A stretch of 64,000 bases of DNA, taken from NCBI RefSeq assembly GCF_014203735.1, contig NZ_JACHJQ010000002.1, positions 929,224-993,223 on the forward strand. The letters are read 5' to 3'. The position numbers were made by a program, and so were the translations under genes. Every line of letters begins with the position of its first letter. Within the stretch, counting starts at the first letter, position 1. The notes beneath the pieces are model-generated. The model had not been told where the DNA came from, made no database searches, and worked only from the letters and a program-made list of their open reading frames with translations. Shown here one piece after another: positions 58,292 through 63,484 of the stretch. The DNA comes from Actinophytocola algeriensis. Its GTDB lineage: Bacteria > Actinomycetota > Actinomycetes > Mycobacteriales > Pseudonocardiaceae.

Positions 58292-58320
58292 TTGCCAAGT
58301 GATCTTCACCTGAGCAGAAT
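58292..58320 (+). promoter_or_regulatory. promoter of the peptide folding/export operon
   Basis: TTGCCA (58292-58297) and CAGAAT (58315-58320), separated by 17 bp, match the housekeeping consensus well. The mRNA would start near 58327 and give a 31-base leader before GTG 58358. Confidence 0.6.
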
Positions 58321-58357
58321 CGCGGCCATACGACGTGGCCGAAGTGGCGAGGTGGGC

Positions 58358-58894
58358 GTGGAGTATCTGGAGTTCGGCTGCCGGGTCCTGCTGGGCGGTG
58401 TGTTCGCCGTGTCCGCCGGCTCCAAGCTGTACTCGCGCACCGCGTTCGCCGATTTCACGGCGGCGACGGCCCGGCTGACCGGAGCGCGTGCGGCACGGGC
58501 GCGACAGCTCGCCGTCGCCGCCGTGGCGGCCGAGCTCGCCATCGTGCTCGCCTTGGCCGTCCCGGCGCTGGTCCTGTGGGGATTTGCCGCCAGTGTGGGC
58601 CTGCTCGCCGTCCTGACGGCGGCCGTCGTCCGCTCCCTGCGCCGGGGGCAGCGGTCGCCGTGCCGTTGCTTCGGCGCGTCGAACACGCCGCTCGGCACGC
58701 AGCATGTGGCCCGCAACGGCGTCCTCGCGGCGTTCGGTGGCCTCGGCATCGCCGCGGGCACGTTCGGGGAAGCGTCGTCGCTGGACCTGGGGCTGGCGTG
58801 CGTGGTCGCCTTCGCCGCGCTGATCGGTGTCGCGCTGACCGCCCGTCTCGACGACCTGATCAGTCTGTTCCGGGCGACGACAGCGACGTCGTAG
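58358..58894 (+). CDS. MauE/DoxX-like redox membrane protein
   Basis: A 178-residue protein with four membrane helices (VLLGGVFAVSAGSKLY; LAVAAVAAELAIVLALAV; ALVLWGFAASVGLLAVLTAA; LGLACVVAFAALIGVAL) of the MauE family, a DsbD/VKOR-like relay. Cys102 and Cys104 (SPCRCFGAS) form the redox Cys-x-Cys at the membrane face. In methylamine utilisation MauE works with the thioredoxin MauD to form disulfides in a small subunit; here I infer the same job for the neighbouring eight-cysteine peptide. GTG 58358 with GAGG upstream. Operon order: MauE-like, MauD-like, S26, ABC. Confidence 0.85.
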   Translation: MEYLEFGCRVLLGGVFAVSAGSKLYSRTAFADFTAATARLTGARAARARQLAVAAVAAELAIVLALAVPALVLWGFAASVGLLAVLTAAVVRSLRRGQRSPCRCFGASNTPLGTQHVARNGVLAAFGGLGIAAGTFGEASSLDLGLACVVAFAALIGVALTARLDDLISLFRATTATS

Positions 58895-58927
58895 CTCAGC
58901 AAGAATACTGAAGAGGGGCTGGATTCC

Positions 58928-59485
58928 GTGACGACGTTTCTCACCGCTGTGGTGACCGTGGTCGGCATTGTCTGCGTGCTGAACTTGTTGCTGCTGCTCG
59001 GTGTCATTCGCCGGCTGAAGGAGCATGACCAGGCGATCGCGAAGATCCCGCACGGCTCGATGGCGAGCGCGCCCGCGGATTCGATGCGGGCTCCCGGCTC
59101 GGAGGTCGACGAGTTCACCGCGGTGAGCACGGACGGTGTTCCGGTTACCAGGGACGCACTGGCCGAGGAGACGATGGTCGGCTTCTTCTCGGTGTCCTGC
59201 GCACCCTGCGCCGAGAACGCGCCGAAGTTCGCCGCACACGCCGCCGGAGTACCCGGTGGCAAGGACAGCGTGCTCGCGGTCGTCGTCGCCGACGGCGATG
59301 ACGACCCGTCCGAGATGGTCCGCACCCTCAGCGACGGCGCCCGGGTCGTCGTCGAGGGATACGACGGGCCGGTGGCCACCGCCTTCGGCGTGACCGCGTT
59401 CCCGACCTACGCCGTGGTCGCGTCCGGCAGGATCACCGCGACCGCGCTCCAGTTCACCACGCTGCCGGTCCCCGCTCCGGTCTGA
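58928..59485 (+). CDS. membrane-anchored MauD/TlpA-like thioredoxin
   Basis: A 185-residue protein anchored by an N-terminal helix (TAVVTVVGIVCVLNLLLLLG) with an outside thioredoxin domain. Active-site Cys91 and Cys94 form CAPC in FFSVSCAPCAENAPKF, and the cis-proline is Pro159 (AFPTYAVV). The Ala-Pro pair between the cysteines is found in MauD-like and some oxidising thioredoxins. It is the likely partner of the MauE-like protein for making or shuffling disulfides outside the membrane. GTG 58928 with GAGGGG upstream. Confidence 0.85.
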   Translation: MTTFLTAVVTVVGIVCVLNLLLLLGVIRRLKEHDQAIAKIPHGSMASAPADSMRAPGSEVDEFTAVSTDGVPVTRDALAEETMVGFFSVSCAPCAENAPKFAAHAAGVPGGKDSVLAVVVADGDDDPSEMVRTLSDGARVVVEGYDGPVATAFGVTAFPTYAVVASGRITATALQFTTLPVPAPV

Positions 59486-59508
59486 CGAACCCCGGCGGAG
59501 ATCTCCCG

Positions 59509-59976
59509 GTGATGTGGACAGTCGCTGCCGTCGTGGTGGCCGCGTCCCTCGCGCTGCTCCTGCGGGCGCGGCGGCTGGTGGTGGTCGACGTGCGGGGCCC
59601 GAGCATGGAACCGACCCTGTACGACGGCGACCGGGTCCTGGTCCGGCGCGTTCCGCTGACCGCGGTCCGAACCGGTGACCTGGTCGTCGTCGCCCGTCCG
59701 GACTCCCACGAGTTCGCGACGGCGGGGCCCTGGGTGATCAAGCGCGCCGCCGCGACGGCAGGCGAGCGGATACCGCCGGTCATCCGGCGCGGCTGGGCCG
59801 AAAACGGCGACATCGACTTCGCCGGCGCGTTGGTGCCGGAGGGACGGCTGCTGCTGCTCGGGGACAACCCGGCACGCAGCGGGGACTCCCGGCACTGGGG
59901 CTTCACCGCTGGGGATGCGGTACTCGGTGTGGTCACCAGGTCGATGCGCGCACGTGCCCGGGGTCAGGCCTCATGA
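59509..59976 (+). CDS. compact S26-type signal peptidase
   Basis: A 155-residue membrane-anchored Ser/Lys protease. One N-terminal helix (TVAAVVVAASLALLL), the catalytic Ser32 in VRGPSMEPTL, the general base Lys78 in PWVIKRAAATAGE, and LLLGDNPARSGDSRHWG as the last conserved box. It is shorter than housekeeping LepB (one membrane helix), in the manner of accessory or dedicated signal peptidases. Its natural substrate may be the peptide at 61843-62055, which has Ala-x-Ala before its first cysteine. Stop overlaps the ABC gene start (ATGA). Confidence 0.88.
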   Translation: MMWTVAAVVVAASLALLLRARRLVVVDVRGPSMEPTLYDGDRVLVRRVPLTAVRTGDLVVVARPDSHEFATAGPWVIKRAAATAGERIPPVIRRGWAENGDIDFAGALVPEGRLLLLGDNPARSGDSRHWGFTAGDAVLGVVTRSMRARARGQAS

Positions 59977-61796
59977 CGACGGACGTGCCGGACGGGCACA
60001 GGTGGCGTACCGCGCGAGGGTTGGCGCCCGCGGTGGCGCTGGCCTTCCGGGGCGCACCCGCGCAGCTGGGGCTGCTGAGCGTGGTCGCGTTGGCAGGGGC
60101 GGTACTCCCGGTCGCGATCACCTGGCTGACCAAGCTGGTCATCGACTCGGTGACCGGGGGCTCCGCGACAGACGCGCTGCTTCCGCTGGCGATCGCACTT
60201 GCCGTGCTCGGCGCGTTGACCGCGACGCTTGCGCAGCTCACGCAGTACCTCTCCGCGGAAGCGCAACGGCGCATCAGCCGAGCGGCCAAGGACCGGCTGT
60301 ACCAGGCGGTGAACCGGTTCCCCGGACTCGGCCGGTTCGAGGATCCTCGGTTCCTCAACCAGCTGCGTCTGGCGGAAGCCGCCGACAGTGCTCCCGCGCA
60401 GCTGACCACCGCGACGATGCAGCTGGTCAGGAACGCGATCACGGCACTCGGGCTGTTCGGATCGCTGTATGTCATCAGCCCGCTCATCGCCTGCGTCGTC
60501 CTGGTCGCCGCGCTGCCGACACTTTTCGCCGAGCTCGCGCTGACACAACGCCGGGTGAACACCACGACGCGGCTGAGCCCGGACGAACGCCGCGAGCTCT
60601 TCTACCAGATGCTGCTGTCCGATGAGCGCGCCAGCAAGGAGATCCGGCTGTTCGGCACCGGCGATTTCCTGCGCGGCAGGATGATGCGCACGATGTCGGG
60701 TATCCACGCCGCCCGGCGCGCACTCGACCGCCGCGAACTGTTCGTCCAAAGTGGCCTCGAGCTCTTCGCCGCCGCCGTCGCGGGCACGGGTCTGGTCTGG
60801 GCGATCCTCGCGGCAGGCCGCGGTGAGCTGACCGCGGGCGACATCGCCATGTTCATCGCCGCGGTCGCGGGTGTGCAGACGGCGGTGGCGGGCATCGTGT
60901 CGTTGCTGGCGCAGACGAACGAACAGCTGATGATCTTCACCCACTACACCGTCGTGGTCAGCGCTCCGCCAGAGCTGCCCATCGCGGAGCACCCGGTGCC
61001 GACGCCGGAACTGCGCCGCGGGATCGTGCTCGACGACGTGTGGTTCCGCTATGGCGACGACCTGCCGTGGGTGCTGCGAGGCGTGTCGCTCACCATTCCG
61101 TACGGCATGGCCGTGGGTCTGGTCGGGAAGAACGGCGCTGGCAAGTCCACCATCGTCAAACTCCTGTGCCGGATGTACGACCCGACGAAGGGCAGAATCA
61201 CCTGGGACGGAGTCGACCTGCGCGATCTCGATCCGGCCCGGCTACGGGATCGTATTGGTGCGGTGTTCCAGGACTTCATGTCCTATGACCTCACCGCGGC
61301 GGAGAACATCGCGCTCGGCGACCTCACGGCGCTGGCGGATCCGGCTCGGATCACCGCGGCTGCCGCGCGTGCGGACATCCACGATGTCGTCGAGAACCTT
61401 CCGGGCGGCTACCGCACCATGCTCAGCCGCATGTTCGCCGATGACGACGGATCGGACGGGACCGGGGTCGTCCTGTCCGGCGGACAGTGGCAGCGATTGG
61501 CGCTGGCAAGGGCCTTCCTCCGCGCCGAGGCAGACCTGTTGATCCTCGACGAGCCGAACGCGGGCCTCGATCCGGAGGCCGAAGCCGAGTCGCACGCCAG
61601 GATCAGCGCGTTGCGGGCGGGAAGCACCTCGGTGCTGATCTCGCACCGGCTCGGTACGCTGCGCGATGCCGATCTGATCGTCGTCCTGGACGACGGGGCA
61701 GTCACGGAGGCCGGTACCCACACGTCACTGCTCGCAAGCGGTGGCACCTACGCCCGCCTGTTCGCCACACAGGCCAAGGGTTACCAGAGCGAATAA
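59973..61796 (+). CDS. ABC exporter (half-transporter, TMD-NBD)
   Basis: A 607-residue type IV exporter half-unit that would work as a homodimer. Six membrane helices (residues 25-320) precede the ATPase: Walker A VGLVGKNGAGKSTI (about 381-394), Q-loop VFQDFMSYDL, signature LSGGQWQRLALARA (about 501), Walker B LLILDEPNAGLD and the H-loop ISHRLG. There is no C39 peptidase domain, so leader removal must be done by another enzyme, and the S26 peptidase fits. The substrate is probably the nearby Cys-rich peptide. ATG 59973 overlaps the S26 stop. Confidence 0.9.
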   Translation: MTTDVPDGHRWRTARGLAPAVALAFRGAPAQLGLLSVVALAGAVLPVAITWLTKLVIDSVTGGSATDALLPLAIALAVLGALTATLAQLTQYLSAEAQRRISRAAKDRLYQAVNRFPGLGRFEDPRFLNQLRLAEAADSAPAQLTTATMQLVRNAITALGLFGSLYVISPLIACVVLVAALPTLFAELALTQRRVNTTTRLSPDERRELFYQMLLSDERASKEIRLFGTGDFLRGRMMRTMSGIHAARRALDRRELFVQSGLELFAAAVAGTGLVWAILAAGRGELTAGDIAMFIAAVAGVQTAVAGIVSLLAQTNEQLMIFTHYTVVVSAPPELPIAEHPVPTPELRRGIVLDDVWFRYGDDLPWVLRGVSLTIPYGMAVGLVGKNGAGKSTIVKLLCRMYDPTKGRITWDGVDLRDLDPARLRDRIGAVFQDFMSYDLTAAENIALGDLTALADPARITAAAARADIHDVVENLPGGYRTMLSRMFADDDGSDGTGVVLSGGQWQRLALARAFLRAEADLLILDEPNAGLDPEAEAESHARISALRAGSTSVLISHRLGTLRDADLIVVLDDGAVTEAGTHTSLLASGGTYARLFATQAKGYQSE

Positions 61797-61802
61797 AGAA
61801 AA

Positions 61803-61828
61803 CGGCGGCGTTCGTTCGAACGCCGCCG
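61803..61828. terminator. bidirectional terminator between exporter and peptide genes
   Basis: A perfect 12-bp inverted repeat (CGGCGGCGTTCG, 61803-61814, with its complement 61817-61828) lies 6 bp after the exporter stop and 14 bp after the peptide stop on the other strand. It serves both convergent transcripts. Confidence 0.8.
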
Positions 61829-61842
61829 CCGGTCATGCGGGT

Positions 61843-62055
61843 CTACGGGGCGCAGCCGGGGTCAGCCGCACAGGTACGGGTCTCCGTCTGGCATCCCGGG
61901 CCGGACAGGCACACCTTGGTCCGGTACCTGCGGTTTCCGTTGCAACCACCGCACTGGCCGACCCAGCGGCACGGCGGACAGATCGCGGATGCCTCGATCT
62001 TTGGTGCGAATACGGAGAGCAGGCGGTCACTCAAGCTTCCGACAAACTTTGTCAT
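61843..62055 (-). CDS. eight-cysteine secreted peptide precursor
   Basis: A 70-residue precursor. Residues 1-25 (begins MTKFVGSLSDRLLSVF) form an amphipathic leader without a Sec-type hydrophobic core, ending A22-S23-A24, an Ala-x-Ala site for S26 peptidases. Cleavage there leaves a 46-residue peptide with cysteines at 26, 29, 35, 38, 49, 55, 62 and 68, net positive, rich in Gly, Arg and Thr. The Cys/Arg pattern (CGGCNGNRRYRTKVC, TETRTC) recalls thrombospondin type 1 repeats, but no homology is claimed. AGGAGG (62061-62066) is perfect for ATG 62055. The neighbours offer export, trimming and disulfide formation. Zinc binding is the main alternative. Confidence 0.8.
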   Translation of the reverse strand: MTKFVGSLSDRLLSVFAPKIEASAICPPCRWVGQCGGCNGNRRYRTKVCLSGPGCQTETRTCAADPGCAP

Positions 62056-62076
62056 GAATACCTCCTAAGTGCGGAA

Positions 62077-62105
62077 ACGATAACCGAGCCACCCAAGATG
62101 ATCAA
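62077..62105 (-). promoter_or_regulatory. promoter of the peptide gene
   Basis: On the minus strand TTGATC (62100-62105) and TATCGT (62077-62082) are separated by 17 bp. Transcription would start near 62070, leaving a leader of about 15 bases that contains the AGGAGG ribosome-binding site. Confidence 0.6.
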
Positions 62106-62120
62106 GACTTCGACAATCCC

Positions 62121-62137
62121 GCTTTCGACGCGAAAGC
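62121..62137 (-). promoter_or_regulatory. palindrome upstream of the peptide promoter
   Basis: GCTTTCG (62121-62127) and CGAAAGC (62131-62137) form a perfect inverted repeat with a three-base centre, just upstream of the -35 of the peptide promoter. Its position suits an activator or repressor site. Confidence 0.45.
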
Positions 62138-62234
62138 ATTCAGTGATTCAACATGTTTCGCCGAGTTCACCTATTAGCAGCAAACTGGGACATGGTCGAG
62201 TCCGAAGTGGTCTTCTCCGAAATCGGGACGCTGA

Positions 62235-62263
62235 CGCACACTGGGGACGTTCCCCGGTTGAAC
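62235..62263 (-). promoter_or_regulatory. degenerate StrR-type binding site
   Basis: On the minus strand GTTCAACCG (62255-62263), 11 bases, then CAGTGTGCG (62235-62243). The StrR consensus is GTTCGActG-N11-CagTcGAAc: the left arm matches 7 of 9 and the right arm only its first 4 bases, with the exact N11 spacing. It lies just after the StrR-like gene and about 180 bp before the peptide gene. Confidence 0.35.
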
Positions 62264-62274
62264 ACCCGTTGACA

Positions 62275-63411
62275 TCACGGCGCAGGCGGTTCGTGCCGCC
62301 GCTGGCCCGGCAGGCGTTCGCCGGAGCCCTTGGCGACCTCGTCGAGGTGCGCCGCGAACTGCTGCCACGCCAAGGCGAGCTCGTGGGCCCGATCAGCGAG
62401 CGACGGCGCCCAGTACGGGGGCACGCTGTCGGACAGGCGCCGCCATCCACCGCCCGCGATGGAATGCGAGCCGAACAGCTGCAGCACGGCGCGGCCCGCT
62501 TCTGTGAACCTGAGCGAGGGATCGGCCCTCAGCCTTCGCATCATCGACGCCCACTGCACGTCAGGGACGTCCGGGACAGCGATGCTGTGCACGTGCGCCG
62601 GCGGCTCCTCCGCGCGCCGGACGAGGCCGACGACCGGTTCACCATCCCGAACGCTCCCCGGTGGTACCGGCGAGGTTTCGGCGTTGTGGACGTTCACCTC
62701 CCGCCGTACGGCGTGGACGGTGCCGACCGAGACACCCGCGGCCCTGGCCACCGTCCGGAGCGAGGCATCGGGATCACGACGGACGATCTCCGCCGCACGC
62801 TCCCGGCCGCCGCGCCCGAGCGGACGGGCGTAGCCGTCGCGGCCGACCCTGCTCGTGGCCTCCGGGAGGTGCTCGGCGAGGTCACGCCGAATCCGCCCGA
62901 CAGTCTTGTGCGCCAGCCCGGTCACGCCCGCGATCATCCGGTCCGACCAGTGCGAATGCGTCGTCAGCACCCGTTCCGCCGCGGCCTTGCGATCGGCGAG
63001 CGACAGGGGCAGCCCGTGGGCGACGTTCGCCCTGACCTTCTCCACGAAGATCTCGTTCGGCCCACAGTCGAGGAATCGGACCCCGATCGCGCGCTGCCCT
63101 CGCAGCTGGGCGGCTCGGAGCCGGTGCATGCCGTCGATGACGAGCATCGACGGCCAGTGCACCAGGATCGGGGGCAGCGGCTCGTCCGTTTCGGCGAGCC
63201 GCTGGATGTGTTCCTCGTCCTCCCCGTCCAGCCGAGGCGAGTCACCCCGCACGAGATCGCTGATCGACACCATCGAGACGGCGTCGGCGAACTCGGGCCC
63301 GGTGGGGCCCGTCACCGTCGACGATACCGAGCGGGGTCGGGACGGACTGGGCATCGGCAACGATTCTGAACCCACGGCGGCTCCACCATCGTGTCGGCGG
63401 GTCAGGGCCAC
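62275..63411 (-). CDS. StrR-family (ParB-like) pathway-specific regulator
   Basis: A 378-residue DNA-binding protein. Residues about 45-135 form the ParB-like N-terminal domain (SISDLVRGDSPRL, LPPILVHWPSMLVIDGMHRL, VRANVAHGLPLSLADRKAAA), followed by a helix-turn-helix (WSDRMIAGVTGLAHKTVGRI) and a second one (DASLRTVARAAGVSVGTVHA). This is the layout of StrR, NovG and Bbr activators of antibiotic clusters, not of chromosome-partition ParB. The start is GTG 63411 with GGAAGG; a longer frame to 63459 would run through the promoter. Likely target: the peptide gene and/or its export operon. Confidence 0.85.
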   Translation of the reverse strand: MALTRRHDGGAAVGSESLPMPSPSRPRSVSSTVTGPTGPEFADAVSMVSISDLVRGDSPRLDGEDEEHIQRLAETDEPLPPILVHWPSMLVIDGMHRLRAAQLRGQRAIGVRFLDCGPNEIFVEKVRANVAHGLPLSLADRKAAAERVLTTHSHWSDRMIAGVTGLAHKTVGRIRRDLAEHLPEATSRVGRDGYARPLGRGGRERAAEIVRRDPDASLRTVARAAGVSVGTVHAVRREVNVHNAETSPVPPGSVRDGEPVVGLVRRAEEPPAHVHSIAVPDVPDVQWASMMRRLRADPSLRFTEAGRAVLQLFGSHSIAGGGWRRLSDSVPPYWAPSLADRAHELALAWQQFAAHLDEVAKGSGERLPGQRRHEPPAP

Positions 63412-63436
63412 GAACCTTCCGGACAAACCTGGTGGC

Positions 63437-63484
63437 AGCCTAGGAACCACGACTGACACGGGACTGCCCGTACTCCACCCGTAC
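63437..63484 (-). promoter_or_regulatory. promoter with GTACGGG direct repeats, StrR-like copy
   Basis: On the minus strand GTACGGG occurs at 63478-63484 and 63467-63473, four bases apart, with TAGGCT (63437-63442) as -10 after 24 bases. Spacing and most intervening bases equal those of the response-regulator promoter at 23622-23669. The mRNA starts near 63430, about 20 bases before GTG 63411. Confidence 0.65.

Follow-up and report, generated by a model that had tools for sequence, protein, structure and literature searches.

Sublancin-type systems of Bacillus (SunT, BdbA, BdbB) combine an exporter, a thioredoxin and a membrane partner for one disulfide peptide. Among redox enzymes, the membrane protein MauE has been speculated to act in formation of the beta-subunit disulfides of methylamine dehydrogenase (PMC7794033). 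The decRiPPter study of 2020 put forward three candidate Streptomyces families that have mauE, one of which also has mauD, with precursors of at least eight cysteines (PMC7794033). Its strict filter demanded a transporter, a peptidase and a regulator, and the passages on the mauE families present a prediction only, with no product reported (PMC7794033). The locus treated here is found in a window of 64,000 nt from Actinophytocola algeriensis (NZ_JACHJQ010000002.1), and all coordinates refer to the whole window. It has a gene for a small cysteine-rich precursor peptide next to genes for a MauE-like membrane protein, a MauD-like thioredoxin, an S26 signal-peptidase-like protease and an ABC exporter. 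We propose, with a probability of roughly 0.85, that these genes form a self-contained cassette whose product is a cysteine-rich peptide, leader-directed and secreted, similar to the ribosomally synthesized and post-translationally modified peptides (RiPPs) and matured mainly by oxidative folding. The mature product is predicted to be a 46-residue peptide with four disulfides.

The precursor open reading frame (ORF; 61843..62055, minus strand) encodes 70 amino acids, including eight cysteines. Residues 1-24, which end in ASA, are the predicted leader and residues 25-70 the predicted core; the ATG start is preceded by AGGAGG. The precursor has no match in Pfam or NCBIfam, and ten diverse relatives likewise show no credible family in these libraries. 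The nearest relatives in the named collection are in two Kribbella genomes; they are 67-73% identical and retain all eight cysteines. Ratios of nonsynonymous to synonymous substitution (dN/dS), obtained by a simple counting method, are 0.30 for the leader and 0.21 for the core in the Kribbella-like group (three sequences), 0.34 and 0.36 in Amycolatopsis-Lentzea types (13 sequences), and 0.10 and 0.37 in Micromonospora types (nine sequences). The ORF is thereby shown to be a real gene under purifying selection. Relatives, purifying selection and the co-location described below together support a precursor that is more than a chance ORF.

Members of the precursor family share a Cys-free leader that ends in AxA, and differ strongly in their Cys-rich cores. 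The leader consensus is L-[GAS]-D-R-[LM]-L-x-x-[FV]-V-P-K-x-x-A-x-A. None of the 64 leaders of cluster representatives has a cysteine, position -1 is Ala in 61 of 62 rows, position -3 is Ala or Val in 60 of 62, and Pro is found at -7 in 74 of 101 cassette leaders. The cores consist of approximately 17% Cys and 12% aromatic residues, display CxC and CC motifs, and vary highly in Cys spacing. A conserved leader, a variable core and maturation and export genes alongside are RiPP-like properties. A hidden Markov model of the leader finds nothing at or above 9 bits across 50 kb of the remaining window, and its best match in nine other control loci is 11.0 bits (L171). A Sec signal peptide was also considered and rejected: by a rough hydropathy measure, with leaders cut at the first AxA, the best ten-residue segments of the leaders have a median of 1.29 (highest leader 2.73), as against 2.4-3.5 for three signal-peptide-like N-termini of the window.

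At the genomic level, precursor and enzyme set are found together in both directions. A precursor search over 298 genomes of the order first gave 30 places at E 0.01. Fourteen of these, the window included, were retained as homologs because of the leader; L015 and L023 proved on inspection to be chance matches, and the remaining 14 have no cassette gene alongside. When precursor and MauD profiles were run over the 298 genomes, 36 of 42 precursor places had a MauD place no more than 5 kb away. Of the other six, five belong to genome G157, whose cassette is located elsewhere, and the sixth is a weak match in G073. Per genome, both are present in 26, the precursor only in one, MauD only in 13 and neither in 258 (Fisher p 1.2e-26, which includes the seeds and ignores relatedness). 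Conversely, a leader-type precursor is found within 6 kb of 41 of the 50 non-seed MauD places that score at least 55 bits, a set that counts the split MauD of L165 once and omits four places under 55 bits (L169-L172), all with no precursor. Since the leader model had been partly trained on the tested loci, the count was redone with a precursor profile made solely from the window and the first 13 loci. This profile finds a precursor at 43 of the 50 places with a threshold of 12 bits and at 31 with one of 20 bits, and in 0 of 9 control loci. A scan of the named collection, seeded with MauD from precursor-bearing loci, shows a leader-type precursor in 34 of 36 loci, and within 6 kb in 27 of 30 non-duplicates; two of the three misses sit at the end of a stretch. 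An earlier note on this DNA had read the set as a peptide-maturation system and proposed to test whether a Cys-rich ORF recurs beside the four genes, naming as the contrary outcome a set usually without the ORF, or the reverse. The counts support that reading in both directions.

All of MauE, ABC, S26 and precursor are within 6 kb at 74 of 96 distinct MauD places of at least 55 bits, a count with seeds included and L165 counted twice. Singly, MauE is near 81 of these places, ABC near 90, S26 near 90 and the precursor near 84. Thus the precursor is co-inherited with four enzymes, and precursor, MauE, MauD, ABC and S26 form the kernel of the cassette. Its distribution across the phylum is patchy, as a broader phylum sample of 396 genomes has MauD in four and the precursor in two.

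All six genes that the earlier note had named, a regulator among them, are present in the window sequence, and the four enzyme genes are on the plus strand. MauE (58358..58894) matches PF07291 at 85.8 bits, where the cut-off is 27, and has CRC inside a CxCFG motif that is present in 13 of 13 set members. Its GTG start at 58358 is likelier than a TTG at 58292, because the Kribbella MauE in L178 starts two residues ahead of that point; MauE proteins of the two Kribbella loci are 74-80% identical to that of the window. The MauD-like protein (58928..59485) has an N-terminal membrane anchor and CAPC at residue 91. CxxC is found in 12 of 12 set members, and the family profile matches solved thioredoxin and ResA structures (best 2l5o, E 2.4e-13). 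By CxxC and profile match, the window gene classes as a MauD/TlpA/ResA-type thioredoxin. The one-helix S26 protein (59509..59976) is the probable leader peptidase. It matches PF10502 at 76.4 bits against a cut-off of 22.9, with Ser32 and Lys78, and the motifs SMxPT and [VIL]KR are both found in 12 of 12 set members. The ABC exporter (59973..61796, 607 amino acids) has fused membrane and ATPase domains that match ABC_membrane and ABC_tran, and is 86-87% identical to those of the two Kribbella loci. MauE, S26 and ABC all exceed curated cut-offs. No N-terminal C39 domain match was found in the exporter, which bears out the earlier description of it as one without its own C39 peptidase.

At the level of the core peptides, pairing of cysteines into disulfides predicts mostly even numbers of Cys. 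Even counts are found in 83 of 91 clusters at 80% identity, 66 of 73 at 60%, 53 of 59 at 50% and 26 of 30 at 40%; the excess is present at all identity cuts, with clusters that are not fully independent. Excluded from this count were L165 and L153 (frame-broken, poor assembly) and L142_5410, which has three Cys and no AxA; the precursors of L160-L162, with 8, 6 and 8 Cys, also stand outside it. Odd numbers occur mostly in neighbouring pairs, at L131 (7+7), L139 (11+9) and L164 (9+7), and L135 and L140 have one odd precursor each. Apart from the dropped ORF of L142, none of the 12 loci that have several leader matches combines an odd with an even precursor. Perhaps odd-odd neighbours give disulfide-linked two-peptide products; neighbouring precursors are often related, and the pairing is therefore a lead only.

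The leader has a counterpart in an enzyme. The leader model first matched a nickel superoxide dismutase (NiSOD) in G157, and 10 of 12 genomes proved to have NiSOD, at 11 places (L262/L263-L273). NiSOD leaders have Pro at -7 in 11 of 11 cases and, like the cassette leaders, end in AxA or VxA. With a matrix of the cassette leaders, five of the 11 outscore all 1747 control AxA segments; the other six are beaten by 1, 2, 8, 16, 36 and 65 controls, that of the source genome being the worst. When -7 and AxA are dropped the separation is weaker, with 2 to 263 controls equally good. In a tree whose bootstrap is not settled, a branch with 100/100 support sets 23 housekeeping signal peptidases apart from the cassette S26 proteins and SodX. 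Five SodX proteins, assigned by position beside NiSOD and by motifs, fall among the cassette S26 proteins, next to that of the window (89/73, an unsure placement). Two tree entries, spI_L294 and spI_L295, are mislabelled cassette proteins, and spI_L281 is a wrong-frame artefact. The window protein itself scores 42.7 bits against SodX (TIGR02754), under the 63.25 cut-off, and by score is not SodX. The N-terminus of SodN has been described as processed by its cognate peptidase SodX (PMC3919588). Common descent of the cassette leader-protease pair and the NiSOD propeptide/SodX pair is suggested by these sequences. Given the NiSOD-like leader end, the grouping of S26 with SodX and the processing by SodX, our best guess is that the S26 protein cuts behind ASA. 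Loci L160-L162, from one genus, have Cys-rich precursors (L160:4273-4476, L161:8435-8692, L162:8498-8707) that adjoin MauE-MauD and an FtsX-type permease and have a different leader. These precursors lack AxA in the 15 residues preceding the first Cys, and the stretches of 7-15 kb contain no S26 match; the joint absence of both counts in favour of the proposed cassette.

In the proposed mechanism, the precursor has a Cys-free leader of 24 residues with the motif L-[GAS]-D-R-[LM]-L-x-x-[FV]-[VA]-P-K-x-x-A-x-A, and the dedicated ABC exporter, which has no peptidase of its own, would move it across the membrane. The membrane-anchored S26 protease would cleave behind A-x-A, and the anchored MauD thioredoxin, recharged by its membrane partner MauE, would pair the eight cysteines to give a product of ~46 residues with four disulfides. 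We infer the order of steps, the cleavage, export and disulfides from knowledge of the families, as we do any bioactivity or role in competition or signalling. This reading makes use of every conserved part.

A number of observations weigh against this reading. No peptide product has been seen. The MauD-like protein scores 24.6 bits with Redoxin (PF08534), just short of the 26.6 cut-off, and thus falls outside that family by score. Nine of the 50 non-seed MauD places are without a leader-type precursor: L143, L147, L151 (in G157, where precursors are unlinked), L160-L162, and L117, L134 and L149, the last three without explanation. At 10 of the 96 MauD places, ABC, S26 and precursor are present with no MauE match nearby. 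At 60% identity, seven of the 73 core clusters have an odd number of Cys. No recurring immunity gene is found among 97 loci. The precursor gene of the window lies on the strand opposite to the enzyme set, and is therefore not co-transcribed with it there.

Three other explanations were weighed. The core may be a metal-binding peptide, metallothionein-like or a metallophore, that is kept reduced by the thioredoxin. The Cys content of 17%, the CxC and CC motifs, and the likeness of the leader to that of a nickel enzyme suit this possibility, which we consider unlikely: aromatics at ~12% are unusual for metallothioneins, and the wide variation in Cys spacing also counts against it. In addition, the decRiPPter paper, where it treats these proteins, ties MauE to disulfide formation and calls the function of MauD unclear (PMC7794033). 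There is a slimmer chance that the cysteines become thioethers or other cross-links by way of an unrecognised enzyme, with MauD and MauE as auxiliaries. In its favour, MauE-MauD also have a lanthionine synthetase as neighbour in L147 and an MvdD-type ATP-grasp enzyme in L143. However, gene families over the 97 loci (own gene caller, seven duplicates included) reveal no non-kernel maturation-type family in more than eight loci beyond the common neighbours of one genus, and even Cys numbers suit Cys-Cys pairing. Very improbable is a role of MauE/MauD for ordinary extracytoplasmic proteins or methylamine dehydrogenase with the small ORF a bystander: MauE-type proteins are common (seven matches in the source genome for one precursor, so that MauE alone is not diagnostic) and MauD-only places exist (L118, L169-L172; 46-52 bits), but the co-location of precursor and set largely refutes this reading and led to rejection of the bystander ORF, and the methylamine dehydrogenase light chain is found in 0 of 12 genomes, a weak point as no positive control matched either.

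The proposed cassette may also act on precursors encoded elsewhere. G157 (loci L043, L151, L173-L176, L251-L260), from the Micromonospora family, has a genome of 5.66 Mb in a single contig. It has a single MauD place at E 1e-12, at ~807 kb, with MauE, ABC and S26 alongside, and five further MauE-type matches away from the cassette. The leader model gives 19 matches at E 0.1, 16 of which were read as precursors at 12 sites; the NiSOD, one Cys-less ORF and one unread match were dropped. The 16 precursors have 4, 6 or 8 Cys, all even numbers, and the nearest is 194 kb from the cassette. Some score weakly on the leader (E up to 0.034).

With respect to neighbouring genes, the precursor of the window is convergent with the four-gene run, and a stem-loop with a T-run lies in between (61801..61830, minus strand). 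It is terminator-like by consensus match, would end the precursor transcript, and comes from a scan in which ~1.5 such sites are expected by chance. Adjoining the precursor is a gene (62275..63459, minus strand) whose product we take to be a StrR/ParB-like regulator; library and structure searches gave no such name, and no curated family of Pfam or NCBIfam is above cut-off. The claim that this regulator belongs to the set did not hold, as it has no match in either Kribbella locus and is not conserved with the kernel. A BTAD/SARP-type regulator recurs instead, in 56 of 97 loci, with two members verified by Pfam. It is the sole non-kernel family in more than eight loci besides chromosomal neighbours common to the Micromonospora loci, which account for the families in 9-15 loci. 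Eight of the 97 loci have an FtsX-type permease, and eight have a GntR-type regulator.

Both Kribbella loci have the same five genes, all on a single strand and arranged precursor-MauE-MauD-S26-ABC. The window differs in that its precursor, and no other gene of the five, is inverted and sits at the far end. Other genes around the Kribbella loci differ by eye. Kribbella belongs to the Propionibacteriales and the window genome to the Amycolatopsis family, and the cassette has therefore probably moved between orders. Streptomyces plasmids also carry it, among them the S. clavuligerus plasmid pSCL4 and one from S. atratus; the annotation of these two lists hypothetical proteins, MauE/DoxX, ABC and S26, and the leader is present in their small ORFs. 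Further cassettes are on Streptomyces and Embleya plasmids. In the source genome, a second MauD-like gene with S26 (L117:8876-9771) has no MauE, ABC or precursor match nearby. In L147 (175-7578), MauE-MauD adjoin two ABC exporters and a lanthionine synthetase of RamC/LanC type, which puts the redox pair in a lanthipeptide cluster. The cluster of L143 (5630-9778) is graspetide-like, with MauE-MauD-ABC next to a small ORF and the MvdD-type ATP-grasp enzyme.

A broader proposal is offered tentatively, at rather less than even odds. MauE-MauD-ABC-S26 may be a general exporter-oxidiser for a large, hypervariable peptide family that works in trans where needed, with G157 as a prochlorosin-like disulfide counterpart. 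The leader-protease pair would share ancestry with NiSOD propeptide/SodX, the MauE-MauD pair would have moved into lanthipeptide and graspetide-like clusters, and odd-odd Cys precursor pairs may form two-peptide products.

Many soil bacteria have the proposed cassette next to a gene for a Cys-rich peptide, a recurrence that suggests a large, little-studied natural-product family; carriers include Streptomyces clavuligerus pSCL4, Amycolatopsis, Lentzea, Micromonospora and Nonomuraea. The leader motif and four genes give a simple handle on many uncharacterised Cys-rich peptides in Actinomycetota. The proposed oxidative-folding machine is perhaps usable for making disulfide peptides, and a second substrate class for SodX-like proteases is suggested. 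How one small machine tolerates varied cores becomes testable, as one genome appears to use it on ~16 of them.

By description, sublancin-type systems differ from the cassette in that C39 in the exporter takes the place of S26, a DsbB-like protein that of MauE, and the product is glycosylated. Methylamine dehydrogenase maturation shares the MauE family and a MauD-like thioredoxin, whereas the cassette has a short peptide substrate, its own exporter and an S26 protease. The NiSOD system has neither a Cys-rich core nor an exporter, and its leader is short (13-20 residues at the chosen starts). Among the literature matches listed, only the decRiPPter paper bore on the enzyme set (PMC7794033). Its families, likened by description, share mauE, in one case mauD, and a precursor of at least eight Cys; they are from Streptomyces only, and the passages on them name no S26 and give no leader motif (PMC7794033). 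The terms S26 and signal peptidase have no occurrence in its main text (PMC7794033). Since decRiPPter foresaw mauE families with Cys-rich precursors, the idea is not wholly new, and the earlier note's word 'undescribed' goes too far (PMC7794033). Relative to the families as that paper describes them and to the literature matches listed, the five-gene kernel, the common leader with its likeness to the NiSOD propeptide, the distribution, the Cys parity, the SodX link and the in-trans case are new (PMC7794033).

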